From positions 1 to 22,295 of the IMG/VR virus record IMGVR_UViG_3300034683_000253: a DNA stretch of 22,295 bases. The stretch is one strand, 5' to 3'. This DNA is from a virus. Shown here piece after piece: positions 12,833 through 22,295 of this stretch (the stretch's first letter is position 1; each line of letters begins with the position of its first letter). The notes under the pieces were generated by a model. It did not search any database. It saw only the letters and a program-made list of their open reading frames with translations, and was not told the origin of the DNA. The position numbers and the translations under genes are program-made.

Positions 12833-13876
12833 TTACTCGGTCCCGGTGCTGCCGTAGGCCATCTGCCAGAAGGCGTAGCCCCCGGCGGCCCGAGCCTCGG
12901 CGCCGAACTTGTACTCCCCGCGCGTGAACACGTCGTCCGCGCTCATGTCGGTCTGCTGCACGAACACGGGCTTCTTGCGCTCCTGGTAGATGAACGGGCG
13001 GACCGGCTTGGTGGTGTCGAGCAGGAACCAGGCCGTGTCGCTGGTCAGGTGGGCGCTCTCCACGACCTCGGCGGTGCCTCTGTAGGGGTTGGGCTTGCCG
13101 TCCTCCAGCCGCTCGGTGGTCATCAGCAGGCGCGCGGTGTCCCCCAACGCCGGAGGCACCAGCAGCACGTTGGGCGTGATGTTCAGCGGGCGGCCCTCGT
13201 CGTCGCGCATCTTGCGCAGCGCCGTGCGGGCGGCGCCGTAGCTGCCCTGGGCGGCGGCCAGGGTGGCCGCGGAGAGCGCCTTGGTGCCCCTGTTGCTGAC
13301 CGACGCACCGGCCACCGGGTGGTCGGTGTCGAAGAAGTACTGGCCGTCGTAGCACAGGGCACTGAATCCCTGGTTGACCAGGTCGAACACGATCTCGTCG
13401 GGCAGTTGCTTGGCCGAAAATCCGGCCATCTGGGCCTGCGGCCCGTAGATGCCCAGGGTGTCGTCCTCGATGTCGTTGCGCTTGACCGACACCGTCGCCT
13501 CGAAGTCGTCGTTGACGATCGAGTAGCGGAATCCCTCCAGCGCCTTGATGACCTTGTCCCCGACCCATTTGCGCATCCGGGGGAAATTGGACAGCCACGC
13601 ATAGTCGTTCTGGCTGCCCGTGGAGGTCACCTTCATGGCGATCTTCTCCCACAGGCTCGGCGCGGCATCGAAGGCCTTGTGGAAGGTGGTCTTGAGGTTC
13701 ATGAATACGTCGGTCAGCACCGCGCGGTTGACCAGCAGACCGCCGAAGCCGAGCAGCGGCCAGGCGCCGCCGGGGTCGGCCTGGGCCGCCTGGGCCGTCT
13801 GGAAGGACAGGGCCAGGGCCACGGCAAACAGCAGCAGCCAGGCCAGGCAGATGGAAACAGTGCGTTTGATGGGCAT
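12833..13876 (-). CDS. T: Major head subunit gpT with an N-terminal signal-peptide-like extension
   Basis: The body of the protein (from about residue 47, 'LLVNRAVLTDVFMNLKTTFHKAF') is a standard Mu gpT: 'LWEKIAMKVTSTGSQNDYAWLSNFPRMRKWVGDK', 'NDDFEATVSVKRNDIEDDTLGIYGPQAQ', 'LCYDGQYFFDTDHPV'. The reading starts at ATG 13876, with AAAGGAGAG placed correctly before it. This adds about 46 residues ahead of the family start: MPIKR, a hydrophobic run (LAWLLLFAVALAL), then polar SFQTAQAAQADP with Ala-x-Ala sites. No ATG or GTG with a ribosome site exists nearer the conserved start. Total length is 347 versus about 305 in Mu. The extension could be a removable signal-like, scaffold-like or membrane-docking segment. 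Confidence 0.95.
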   Translation of the reverse strand: MPIKRTVSICLAWLLLFAVALALSFQTAQAAQADPGGAWPLLGFGGLLVNRAVLTDVFMNLKTTFHKAFDAAPSLWEKIAMKVTSTGSQNDYAWLSNFPRMRKWVGDKVIKALEGFRYSIVNDDFEATVSVKRNDIEDDTLGIYGPQAQMAGFSAKQLPDEIVFDLVNQGFSALCYDGQYFFDTDHPVAGASVSNRGTKALSAATLAAAQGSYGAARTALRKMRDDEGRPLNITPNVLLVPPALGDTARLLMTTERLEDGKPNPYRGTAEVVESAHLTSDTAWFLLDTTKPVRPFIYQERKKPVFVQQTDMSADDVFTRGEYKFGAEARAAGGYAFWQMAYGSTGTE

Positions 13877-13887
13877 GTGTCTCTCCT

Positions 13888-14289
13888 TTACTCGACCCAG
13901 ACGCCCTCGGCGCCGACGCCGAGCACGATCCCGCAGGCCGAACGGGTGTTGGTGCCGTGGGTCTTGGCCACGGTCTGGTCGTCCACGATGTAGCAGGGCT
14001 TGCCCACGCACGCCTGGTCCACGGCGTCCGTGGCCGAGTTGGCGAACAGGAACGCCTTGCGGCGGCGCACGAGCACGGTCCGCGCGCCGTCGGCGCCCGC
14101 GCTGTTGTCCACCTGCTCCTCGGCCCGGCCCAGGTAGGTCAGGGTCGTGGCGGTGCTGCCGGGTGCGGCGTAGCCGGTGGCAGTGGCCACCACCAGGCTG
14201 CCAGCGTAGATCTTGACGCCCGCCGCCACGGGCACGGAGATCAGTTCGCCGTCCCGGTAGGGCGTGTTGCGGTCACTGGTGAGCGCCAT
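13888..14289 (-). CDS. Putative head decoration/cement protein (Mu gp33 position)
   Basis: A 133-residue protein, MALTSDRNTPYRDGELISVPVAAGVKIYAGSLVV..., lies between scaffold and gpT. The beginning resembles capsid cement proteins found before the major head gene ('R.t..r.G......pvaag..i.aG.lv......g...p'). The rest is beta-rich ('AAPGSTATTLTYLGRAEEQVDNS', 'TVLVRRRKAFLFANS', 'ACGIVLGVGAEGVWVE'). The ribosome site AAGGAG sits upstream. It probably stabilises the expanded capsid, an inference from position and composition. A trimeric DUF2190-like fold is possible but not demonstrated. Confidence 0.7.
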   Translation of the reverse strand: MALTSDRNTPYRDGELISVPVAAGVKIYAGSLVVATATGYAAPGSTATTLTYLGRAEEQVDNSAGADGARTVLVRRRKAFLFANSATDAVDQACVGKPCYIVDDQTVAKTHGTNTRSACGIVLGVGAEGVWVE

Positions 14290-14298
14290 GTCGTCTCC

Positions 14299-14901
14299 TT
14301 ACCCGGCGTACTTGGCCAGGTCTTCGGGGGTGTTGCCGAACATCTCGGCGATCTGGGCCTGCTGCGCGTTCAGGGCCTTCGGGTCGGCGTCCCCGGGCTT
14401 GCCGGGCAGCTCGGGATCCTTGATGACCTGCGGCGCCGTGGCCATGAACTTCTTGAACTCCTCCAGGCCGCCCTCCGCCGCGCACATGGCGCGGTAGTAG
14501 CCCTGGCTGGCCGGGGCGATCTTGCCCCCGGCGATGGCCTGGGTCACGGCGGCCTCGATGTCGGCCTCGCGCCGGGCGGCCTCGATCGTGCGCAGCCGCT
14601 CCTCGGCGTTGGCGGCGCGGGTCAGGGCGTGGTCCAGGTCGGTGCGGGGCACATACTTGTCCAGGCCTCCGGGCTGCTGCTGGTTGGCGGCCTTCGCCAG
14701 GGCCTGGGCTTTGGCCGCGGCCTGGTCGGCGGTGGACCCGGCGGGCAGGTCCAGGGCGGCGGCCACGCCTGCGGGCACTTCGGGGGTGTTCTTGGCCTTG
14801 TCCAGGGCGGCCTGCACGGCCCCCGCCTGCTGGTTGATCTGCTCCTCGGTGGCGTCTTCGGCCACGCCGAGCAGGGCGCACAATGCCTTGGGCAACTTCA
14901 T
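14299..14901 (-). CDS. Z: Head scaffolding protein nested in the protease gene (Mu Z-like internal start)
   Basis: An in-frame ATG (protease Met157) at 14901 is preceded by a strong ribosome site, GGAGG, 5 bases before it. Initiation here would yield a 200-residue protein (MKLPKALCALLGVAEDATEEQ...) that lacks the protease domain. It is rich in Ala, Gln and charged residues with long helices ('LTRAANAEERLRTIEAARREADIEAAVTQAIA'), typical of scaffolds. In Mu the scaffold Z is made from the 3' part of the protease gene I, and lambda does the same with C/Nu3. Sequence and precedent agree; expression is inferred. Confidence 0.75.
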   Translation of the reverse strand: MKLPKALCALLGVAEDATEEQINQQAGAVQAALDKAKNTPEVPAGVAAALDLPAGSTADQAAAKAQALAKAANQQQPGGLDKYVPRTDLDHALTRAANAEERLRTIEAARREADIEAAVTQAIAGGKIAPASQGYYRAMCAAEGGLEEFKKFMATAPQVIKDPELPGKPGDADPKALNAQQAQIAEMFGNTPEDLAKYAG

Positions 14902-15369
14902 CTCGTCCTCCGGTTCGGCGGCCTGGGCGTTCAGCGCCTTGAGCCGCAGGTTGGGGTGATTCGTGAGCCCCGCCGACACCAGCTCGGCAACATGGCTCGG
15001 GACTGATTGGGTGTGGTAGAACACGGGCGACAGGTAGCGGTATTCCCGCGTGGCGATCTGATTCGCCGCCCGGGGGGTCCATTCGACCCGGCCCCACACG
15101 GCGCCGCCCCGAATCTCCAGCCCGGTGATCCAACCCGCAGCAGGGGCCTCCAGGCCTTTCGGCGCGCGGTGTTCGGTCGCGTGTTCCCAGTCGATCTGTA
15201 CGGGCAGCCCGCGCCGGTTGTACGCGGCGACGACCCGGGCGGCGTCGTCCGGGCCGAACGCCCAGGCCCGCCCGTCGATGCCGCGCACCTCAGGGCCAGC
15301 GGGGATCAGCTCGACCCACTCCGGAGCCTGCCCTGCGGGCATCTCGGTGTTGAAAGCGATACGTCTCAT
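14299..15369 (-). CDS. I: Prohead protease with scaffold domain (Mu I)
   Basis: The 356-residue protein begins 'MRRIAFNTEMPAGQAPEWVELIPAGPEVRGIDGRAWAF' and contains 'GLPVQIDWEHATEHRAPKGLEAPAAGWITGLEIRGGAVWGRVEWTPRAANQIATREYRYLSPVFYH', the Mu-like prohead protease signature. His63 in DWEHA and Ser114 in YLSPVF are the best candidate catalytic residues. 'SAGLTNHPNL' at 132-141 closes the protease domain. Residues 157-356 form the helical scaffold part, which also has its own start. The start follows GAGGGG in the leader, at the downstream end of a 380-base gap. The protease matures the prohead before packaging. Confidence 0.95.
   Translation of the reverse strand: MRRIAFNTEMPAGQAPEWVELIPAGPEVRGIDGRAWAFGPDDAARVVAAYNRRGLPVQIDWEHATEHRAPKGLEAPAAGWITGLEIRGGAVWGRVEWTPRAANQIATREYRYLSPVFYHTQSVPSHVAELVSAGLTNHPNLRLKALNAQAAEPEDEMKLPKALCALLGVAEDATEEQINQQAGAVQAALDKAKNTPEVPAGVAAALDLPAGSTADQAAAKAQALAKAANQQQPGGLDKYVPRTDLDHALTRAANAEERLRTIEAARREADIEAAVTQAIAGGKIAPASQGYYRAMCAAEGGLEEFKKFMATAPQVIKDPELPGKPGDADPKALNAQQAQIAEMFGNTPEDLAKYAG
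14907..14911 (-). promoter_or_regulatory. Internal ribosome binding site for the nested scaffold
   Basis: The minus strand reads GGAGGACGAGATG here, a full-length Shine-Dalgarno core spaced 5 bases from an in-frame ATG. A site of this quality inside a coding region is unusual and decides the scaffold start at 14901. Confidence 0.7.
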
Positions 15370-21043: not shown

Positions 21044-21359
21044 ACCGGCCTCCCTTTTTTTCCAGTTTTGCGGCCAGGGCGTCGAGCTTGGCCTCGATGA
21101 CGGTCTGGTTCCTGATCCAGTCCTCCCGGCGCACGTATTCCAGCGGGAGCTTGGCCAGCAGCGACAGGAGCCCCTTTTCGGTCGCCTCGGCGCGTTGCTT
21201 CGCCTCGGCGGCGTCACGGGCGATTGTGGCCATGTACGTCGCGGTTTGCCGCTCCTGGAGGTGGCTGACAATCTTCCAGACCGCGAAGACGAACCCGAAC
21301 CACGCCAGCAGGAGGGTGACCCCCAAGGTCACCAGTTGCCAAAGCGGAAGGGTCACCAC
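21033..21359 (-). CDS. DUF2730 family membrane-anchored protein (Mu gp25-like)
   Basis: The 108-residue protein has one membrane segment at about residues 8-30 ('QLVTLGVTLLLAWFGFVFAVWKIVSHL'), then a helical coiled-coil-like tail ('RDAAEAKQRAEATEKGLLSLLAKLPLEYVRREDWIRNQTVIEAKLDALAAKLEKK'). The 'LPleYVRReDw' and 'id.kLdal..kle' patterns are typical of DUF2730. Starts are GTG at 21359 or GTG at 21356; the second gives a GTGA overlap with the preceding stop. Function is unknown; it belongs to the block between lysis and packaging genes. Confidence 0.88.
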   Translation of the reverse strand: MVTLPLWQLVTLGVTLLLAWFGFVFAVWKIVSHLQERQTATYMATIARDAAEAKQRAEATEKGLLSLLAKLPLEYVRREDWIRNQTVIEAKLDALAAKLEKKGGRYDC

Positions 21360-21655
21360 GCGGCCCCCTGGTCAGCGCCGCGCGCCTCCCGGACCTGCCA
21401 GCAGCGCAGGGCCGCCTCCAGGCGTTCCGCATAGCCCGCCAGGTCGATTACGTTGTGCATCAGCGTCTCCAGGTTCTGCGCGCTGCCCAGGTGCGCATCA
21501 GGGTCGAGCGGCGCCAGGGCGGGCCGCTGCGGGCTCGGGCAGGCCGGGGGCGCCGGGGGCGGCGCCAGGGTCGGCTGCGGCGTCGCGCAGCCCGCCAAAA
21601 ACATCGTTGAGCACAGCAGCAACACGCGCGCTGCTGGCCATGTCCACCACCGCAT
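21353..21655 (-). CDS. Outer-membrane spanin lipoprotein (Rz1-like), nested start in Rz
   Basis: The 100-residue protein has a short charged and aromatic start, a hydrophobic run (VLLLCSTMF) and a lipobox LAGC at residues 20-23, so Cys23 would be lipidated. A proline-rich stretch follows (residues 25-49, e.g. PTLAPPPAPPACP), typical of Rz1 proteins. The rest is helical ('NLETLMHNVIDLAGYAERLEAALRCWQVREA'), a little longer than the classic Rz1. It starts inside the Rz-like gene in another frame, with AGGAGG just upstream, and overlaps it by 158 bases. This arrangement is diagnostic. It partners the inner spanin to fuse the two membranes at lysis. Confidence 0.88.
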   Translation of the reverse strand: MRWWTWPAARVLLLCSTMFLAGCATPQPTLAPPPAPPACPSPQRPALAPLDPDAHLGSAQNLETLMHNVIDLAGYAERLEAALRCWQVREARGADQGAAW

Positions 21656-22016
21656 ACTCCTCCTCCGCCCGCTGCGCGGGCACGGGTTGTGCGCCCGCCA
21701 GGGCCGCCCGGGCCGCAGTGCGGCGCTGGCGCTCCCGGGCCTGGGCCGCTTCCGTGGCGCGCACCTGCCCGGCCAGGGCCTGGGCCGACGCGTCCAGGGC
21801 GGCGGCCTCGGCCTGGGCGGCGGCCAGGCGCAGTGCCAGGGCCGCTACGGCCCGTGAGCACTCGGCCTGCTCGGCGACCAGCCGGGCCCGGGCCGTGTCC
21901 AGCCGGGCCTGGGTCAGCCACAGCGCCAGGCCCAGCCCGGCGGCAGCCAGCAACCCGGCGGCCCCCAGGGCCCCGCGCCAGCCCACCAGCGCCCACGCTG
22001 TACGCAGCCAGGTCAC
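21498..22016 (-). CDS. Inner-membrane spanin (Rz-like)
   Basis: A GTG start at 22016 overlaps the transglycosylase stop (GTGA). The 172-residue product has an N-terminal membrane anchor at about residues 15-35 ('GALGAAGLLAAAGLGLALWL'), then a long Ala-rich coiled coil from about 36 to 106 ('LDTARARLVAEQAECSRAVAALALRL', 'AQARERQRRTAARAAL'), matching i-spanin topology. The C-terminus is low-complexity Pro/Ala, under pressure from the overlapping Rz1-like frame. It is anchored in the inner membrane, spans the periplasm and acts after peptidoglycan cutting. Confidence 0.82.
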   Translation of the reverse strand: MTWLRTAWALVGWRGALGAAGLLAAAGLGLALWLTQARLDTARARLVAEQAECSRAVAALALRLAAAQAEAAALDASAQALAGQVRATEAAQARERQRRTAARAALAGAQPVPAQRAEEEYAVVDMASSARVAAVLNDVFGGLRDAAADPGAAPGAPGLPEPAAARPGAARP

Positions 22017-22295
22017 GGGCACACCCCCCGGCCCCAGCCCGCCGCCGCGTACAGCGGCGTCAGGTGCAGCAGGATGCGGCGCGGGTAGCCCCGGTTTTCC
22101 TTCCAGGCCGCCGGGCCGCGCCCGGCGTTGACGGCCTCCACCTGGCCCCACCAGCGCGAGGGGTCCAGCCCCTGGGCCCGGGCCAGGGCCGCGTCGCGGC
22201 GCACCCAGCCCAGCCCGCCGTTGTAGGCCGACAGCGTCAGCGCCCAGCGGTTGCAGTCGTCCGCCGCCTCCACGCGCCGCCACAGCCACAGGTCG
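22013..22295 (-). CDS. Lytic transglycosylase-like endolysin, C-terminal part (5' end outside window)
   Basis: The frame enters from the right edge and ends at 22013; 94 codons are visible. It reads DLWLWRRVEAADDCNRWALTLSAYNGGLGWVRRD..., in which 'dRWa.tLSAYNGGLGWV.RD' is the conserved C-terminal half of SLT-type transglycosylase domains in Mu-like prophages. The tail 'WKENRGYPRRILLHLTPLYAAAGWGRGVCP' is also typical. The catalytic glutamate would lie outside the window. A GTG at 22273 inside the frame is not the start. It degrades peptidoglycan for host lysis and is followed by the spanins. Confidence 0.85.
   Translation of the reverse strand, partial: DLWLWRRVEAADDCNRWALTLSAYNGGLGWVRRDAALARAQGLDPSRWWGQVEAVNAGRGPAAWKENRGYPRRILLHLTPLYAAAGWGRGVCP

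Follow-up and report, generated by a model that had tools for sequence, protein, structure and literature searches.

A recurrent N-terminal leader of transmembrane-helix character on the major head protein of Mu-like phages

The question raised by this locus is whether the major head protein gpT of a Mu-like phage begins with a leader of 46 residues and, if so, what such a leader might do on a capsid subunit. The window, a virus record of 22,295 bases, carries on its minus strand a Mu-like head and tail module of portal, gpF, gpI protease, a 133-residue structural protein, gpT, FluMu_N and sheath (all window coordinates below are on the minus strand). The gpT open reading frame (P0001; 12833–13876) encodes 347 residues, leader included, and is identified by matches to PF10124 (E = 8.5e-97; profile score 324.4 bits against a curated cut-off of 20.1) and to phrog_371, major head protein (E = 4.4e-106), as well as by an HK97-fold match to the JBD30 procapsid structure 8rkx. 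Within the protein the Pfam match sets in near residue 55, the PHROG match at residue 49. The conserved core, from LLVN onward (12836–13738), starts where short-form relatives begin. The frame opens with TAAAGGAGAGACAC-ATG at 13876 and runs to 12833; AAAGGAGAG precedes this ATG, the ribosome-binding region AAAGGAGAGACAC, assigned from the sequence and from anti-Shine–Dalgarno pairing, lies 5' of it at 13877–13890, and the 46 extra codons (MPIKRTVSICLAWLLLFAVALALSFQTAQAAQADPGGAWPLLGFGG) span 13739–13876 exactly, ahead of LLVNRAVL.

The sequence-only reading had taken this ATG and its ribosome site to place the gpT start 46 residues before LLVNRAVL, and the open reading frame, codon usage and anti-Shine–Dalgarno pairing all agree with that placement. 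The in-frame codon score is 0.91 both in the leader and in the gpT core, compared with −0.93 and −0.63 in the other two frames. Pairing energies at the own starts of extended gpT genes are strong (median −7.4 versus a background of −2.2). An internal start at LVN, which would make this a dual-start gene, was considered and rejected: the energy there equals that of random codons, and the Gly codons at this position show no purine bias. Translation from LVN, which the earlier reading had named as a refuting outcome, is thus very unlikely, and a double gpT product is not expected because no ribosome site is left there. An upstream part thrown out of frame by a sequencing error or frameshift is ruled out, since many relatives align in frame through the leader, where the synonymous rate exceeds the non-synonymous rate; the codon scores point the same way. 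It is therefore nearly certain that the leader is real and translated from its own start.

The leader follows a fixed plan, consisting of a positive start, a transmembrane-grade helix of about 18 residues, an acidic linker, a Gly-rich stretch and a Gly immediately before LVN. The n-region MPIKR (13862–13876) has a net charge of +2; the basic start noted earlier holds well beyond the window, a positive n-region being present in 87/87 extended relatives, with a net charge of about +2 in the 61 representatives aligned. The hydrophobic helix TVSICLAWLLLFAVALALSF (residues 6–25; 13802–13861) contains the run previously read as 13 residues long; the run is there, but its length was underestimated, as it is apolar without interruption for 20. 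When the same residues are shuffled, 0.2% of the shuffles attain its 15-residue Kyte–Doolittle hydropathy (KD15) of 2.87, and 0 of 20,000 show every signal-like feature at once; all 87 extended relatives have a hydrophobic run, with a median KD15 of 2.47. Among the 61 representatives the uninterrupted apolar run has a median of 18 residues and reaches at least 18 in 67%, and the mean Eisenberg hydrophobicity of 0.77 and moment of 0.10 fall in the region of transmembrane helices, not of amphipathic ones. These are the values of a transmembrane anchor (at least about 18 apolar residues of high hydrophobicity) and not those of the charged or amphipathic soluble helix of a capsid pro-domain.

The Ala-rich, acidic linker QTAQAAQADPG (residues 26–36; 13769–13801) is followed by the second, Gly-rich hydrophobic stretch GAWPLLGFGG (residues 37–46; 13739–13768), which ends in the near-invariant Gly-46. 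Over the 61 representatives the linkers contain 101 Asp/Glu in total versus 9 Lys/Arg, and the second stretch has a median hydropathy of 1.93 over positions −9 to +3 and an apolar run of about 12–14 residues (median 12). Gly occupies position −1 in 56/61 and Gly or Ala position −2 in 52/61, and the boundary Gly is as conserved as residues of the gpT core. The positive n-region and acidic linker together predict a membrane segment with a cytoplasmic N-terminus. No lipobox or twin-arginine motif was found in the leaders; the leader alone matched no known domain in PHROGs or NCBIfam, and the full extended proteins, all 61 of which match PF10124, gave no leader-specific Pfam match.

Comparison of gpT N-termini among relatives, a check proposed in the earlier reading, shows that the leader recurs. 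A scan of genomes and five scans of viruses directed at gpT yielded 456 gpT loci, 316 of them non-redundant; 87 of the 316 carry an in-frame leader of 36–56 residues with its own start and 229 begin at the canonical M-(L/I)-V-N. Since extended proteins served as queries, this sample is weighted towards the extended form (the first scans gave 28/160 extended). No intermediate between the two forms occurs among the 316, and a further scan added five extended and three short proteins. Hosts of extended prophages include Pseudodesulfovibrio, Geomonas, Mariprofundus, Nitrosovibrio, Herbaspirillum, Rhodocyclaceae, Methylobacter, Methylotenera and KSB1; cultured hosts among them are Mariprofundus ferrooxydans PV-1 (L098), Geomonas limicola Red745 (L099), Nitrosovibrio sp. 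Nv4 (L085) and Herbaspirillum sp. ST 5-3 (L084). No extended gpT was seen in an isolated-phage collection (209–214 records with a gpT match, N-termini inspected in part). The suggested fusion with the gene of a small membrane protein, taken as a single event, is unsupported because the same architecture appears in 87/316 relatives with many switches between forms; the leader is, on the sequences compared, a recurrent add-on to the capsid protein and not an isolated oddity. One Methylobacter contig (JAGXGY010000027.1; L153, L158) encodes both forms of gpT, extended and short, at a distance of about 19 kb; they apparently belong to two neighbouring Mu-like prophages of different type. Two Salinibacter phage gpT genes (MF580961 and MF580956) are annotated with a 'sig_peptide' over the full gene or as 'contains transmembrane regions'; they have no hydrophobic leader and were rejected as further cases, the annotations being probably erroneous.

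The leader changes quickly in sequence and hardly at all in plan: leaders are about 27% identical where gpT cores are 70–80% identical, and close pairs give a dN/dS of 0.34 for the leader and 0.087 for the core. Such values suggest a segment that is coding and constrained, though loosely, and are as expected if physical character and not sequence is selected, which seemingly is the case. Trees of the gpT core require 32 (FastTree) or 29 (IQ-TREE) changes between extended and short forms, of which well-supported branches force 15 or 14, so that there are at least 14 gains or losses on these single-gene trees; many of them may reflect recombination between phages at the 5' end. In the sister phages L177, with a leader, and L093, without one, the cores are 93% identical and two upstream proteins 78%, and the short L093 protein begins exactly at the position homologous to the core start of L177.

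AlphaFold modelling of gpT, run with the 61 extended proteins, gives an HK97 fold with an N-arm helix at residues 51–71, joined by a low-confidence linker to a leader helix at residues 4–24. Block mean pLDDT is 77–88 over residues 1–20, and segments below 50 fall within residues 31–45 (residues 31–34 and 36–39 among them). The closest structures found with Foldseek are 8rkx (JBD30 procapsid; E = 1.2e-17) and 9jod (Mu; E = 8.1e-17). The N-arm of the JBD30 capsid protein (residues 6–25) is helical in the procapsid and unfolds upon expansion (PMC11445458), which suggests that the leader would start in or near the procapsid interior.

The surroundings of gpT are the same in both forms. The 133-residue virion structural protein just upstream (13888–14289; phrog_1731, E = 3.4e-55) is present at 85/87 extended and 216/229 short loci. 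The gpI head maturation protease, a candidate processor of the leader (14299–15369; PF10123, E = 1.8e-61; phrog_328), is equal in length in extended and short phages, and gpI, the 133-residue protein and FluMu_N keep their places. A leader that replaces a scaffold or is tied to a different protease was therefore rejected. Across the 20 kb examined, no gene could be linked convincingly to the extended form. FluMu_N had given the strongest association (p = 9e-5) and was set aside, since the larger set does not show it (76/87 extended versus 186/229 short); the association was probably a clustering effect. In 50 virus records the sheath is present in 12/27 extended and 19/23 short phages, leaving 15/27 and 4/23 sheathless; both tail types thus occur among extended phages and the link between leader and tail type is only a tendency. 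The greater frequency of extended gpT in sheathless Mu-like phages may be a lineage effect. Elsewhere in the window, positions 21356–22295 read as Rz-like and lipoprotein spanin-like open reading frames together with the last part of what is probably a lytic transglycosylase gene; a holin would lie past the end of the contig.

The best single account of these observations, held tentatively, is that the leader interacts with the membrane as a removable arm on a capsid subunit that itself stays cytoplasmic. Of the roles proposed in the earlier reading, membrane docking and a removable scaffold-like arm are both candidates. In favour of the arm speak the coding character and own start of the leader, its transmembrane-grade and non-amphipathic helix, the charge pattern, the loose constraint on sequence, the constant second hydrophobic element and boundary Gly, the gpT cysteines, which give no hint of export, and the modelled helix joined flexibly, at low confidence, to the capsid fold. 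Taken separately, interaction of the leader with the membrane is likely and a cytoplasmic location of the gpT domain is likely. The gpT domain would stay in the cytoplasm while the leader enters the inner membrane, either as an N-in/C-in helix with a re-entrant hairpin or as a loosely held arm, and holds gpT or growing proheads there. Its removal would fall within maturation or precede it, and the simplest route would be a cut after Gly-46, restoring the short-form N-terminus. The hairpin is needed to rescue a membrane reading, since behind a simple N-in signal anchor gpT would end up in the periplasm, where packaging is impossible; with the N-terminus predicted to be cytoplasmic, a cytoplasmic gpT requires either that the second stretch turns the chain back or that the helix lies in the procapsid lumen. 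The combination of membrane hairpin and cut after Gly-46 is speculative. Membrane contact, removal and an effect on assembly are what we infer here for a leader whose existence, coding, architecture and switching are read from sequence. Against a membrane arm, the second stretch is short for a transmembrane span, phages with a 93% identical gpT manage without the leader, and the search for a gene specific to extended phages found none. To our knowledge, no tailed-phage capsid protein has been shown to act as a membrane-interacting, removable arm, and no precedent for a membrane-interacting capsid leader was found in the limited open-access literature searched. It is possible, though rather doubtful, that a large and so far unrecognised group of Mu-like phages uses a removable hairpin at the N-terminus to tether its capsid subunits to the inner membrane, gain or loss of this one module switching the phages between tethered and free assembly.

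The main rival to a membrane arm is a leader that makes no membrane contact and lies inside the procapsid, bundled under the capsomers or touching the scaffold, until gpI cuts it at Gly-46|Leu-47. This arrangement is also possible but somewhat unlikely, and both readings predict a cut near Gly-46. The N-terminal arm is the site of removable pro-regions in other head proteins, T4 gp23 losing 65 N-terminal residues and its N-terminal regions leaving the prohead interior on expansion (PMC9958956); the JBD30 N-arm behaves compatibly, being helical in the procapsid and unfolded after expansion (PMC11445458). The gpI gene lies two genes upstream of gpT, and a cut at the conserved boundary Gly would give the short form. 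Nevertheless, the 18-residue helix is uncharged and non-amphipathic, which does not resemble a charged coiled-coil pro-domain; the length of gpI and the gene neighbours stay the same with or without the leader, and in short sister phages the same protease is encoded although there is no arm for it to cut.

A classical Sec signal peptide, which the signal peptidase of the host would cleave at Ala-x-Ala, with some or all of gpT exported to the periplasm, is improbable. The positive n-region and hydrophobic h-region would suit it, as would the Ala-x-Ala sites that the earlier reading took as cleavage sites. Such sites are indeed present, in 51/61 leaders; as cleavage evidence they are weak because 43.9 ± 3.0 of 61 are expected from composition shuffles (P = 0.012), and they lie at a median residue of 23 of about 46, well ahead of the gpT start. 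Capsid subunits in the periplasm could, moreover, not be packaged. Export of the gpT domain is also disfavoured because extended and short proteins are equal in cysteine content (p = 0.87), whereas phrog_240 shows a marked difference; by this indirect test the gpT domain is probably not exported, and a classical export signal is unlikely.

The family phrog_240 (L475, 4600–5124, minus strand; L513–L553) is a virion protein unrelated to gpT with a fibre-tail-adaptor or neck fold (Foldseek 8jou, E = 2.2e-6). About half of its 36 distinct viral relatives carry a textbook signal peptide of 22–32 residues exactly before the usual start, and a cysteine pair, at two alternative places, is found in 15/18 leader forms and 0/18 others (Fisher p = 3e-7, which overstates independence because the sequences are related). 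This pattern is probably what true export looks like, and it suggests that these virion fibre adaptors mature in the periplasm.

It is highly improbable that the leader acts as a released peptide, cut off in head maturation as a small membrane peptide that either leaves the head and aids lysis timing or stays in the virion until it is ejected together with the DNA. The module is swappable, tolerant of sequence change and membrane-grade, and the 13–15 Å pores of the JBD30 procapsid could allow exit (PMC11445458), but cleavage of the leader is itself only presumed. An annotation artefact, with the true start near LVN or a broken frame, is hardly credible: Met does stand at the LVN position in 27/61 extended forms, but LVN lacks a Shine–Dalgarno sequence, the window codon there is CTG, codon usage and dN/dS are those of coding sequence and the frame is open in 87 relatives. 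The Met frequency of 44%, versus about 17–18% expected among Met, Leu and Ile, is likely to be a start-codon relic.

Capsid subunits of tailed phages are usually regarded as cytoplasmic proteins that require no more than a soluble scaffold or pro-domain. If the most abundant virion protein recurrently carries a swappable, membrane-grade leader, then either some heads would be built at the membrane or capsid pro-regions would include a new kind. Pairs of sister phages that differ in the leader while their capsid proteins are 93% identical open the question to direct test. The gpT leaders may also have been overlooked where gene callers trim starts of this sort.

Compared with known systems, the window gpT shares with Mu-like gpT proteins (PF10124; JBD30 gp38, PDB 8RKC/8RKX; Mu capsid 9JOD) the same core from about residue 50, the HK97 fold and the gene order gpI, 133-residue structural protein, gpT and FluMu_N; the solved JBD30 and Mu chains have 302–305 residues and no leader, whereas the window protein has 46 residues more. 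Sec/SPase I signal peptides, signal anchors and phage signal-arrest-release sequences have a positive n-region, a hydrophobic helix and Ala/Gly richness. The leader shares these features, but it sits on a capsid protein whose assembly has to take place in the cytoplasm, adds an acidic linker and a Gly-rich second stretch, and belongs to a protein without a cysteine export signature. The T4 gp23 propeptide and the HK97 delta domain are likewise N-terminal extensions on an HK97-fold subunit with a protease gene in the head module; these are cut by the prohead protease, whereas cutting of the window leader is presumed and its core is uncharged and transmembrane-grade. In T4, prohead initiation takes place at the inner membrane through gp20 with gp40 and YidC (PMC9958956); there it is the portal and not the major capsid protein that binds the membrane, the common idea being head assembly held at the inner membrane.
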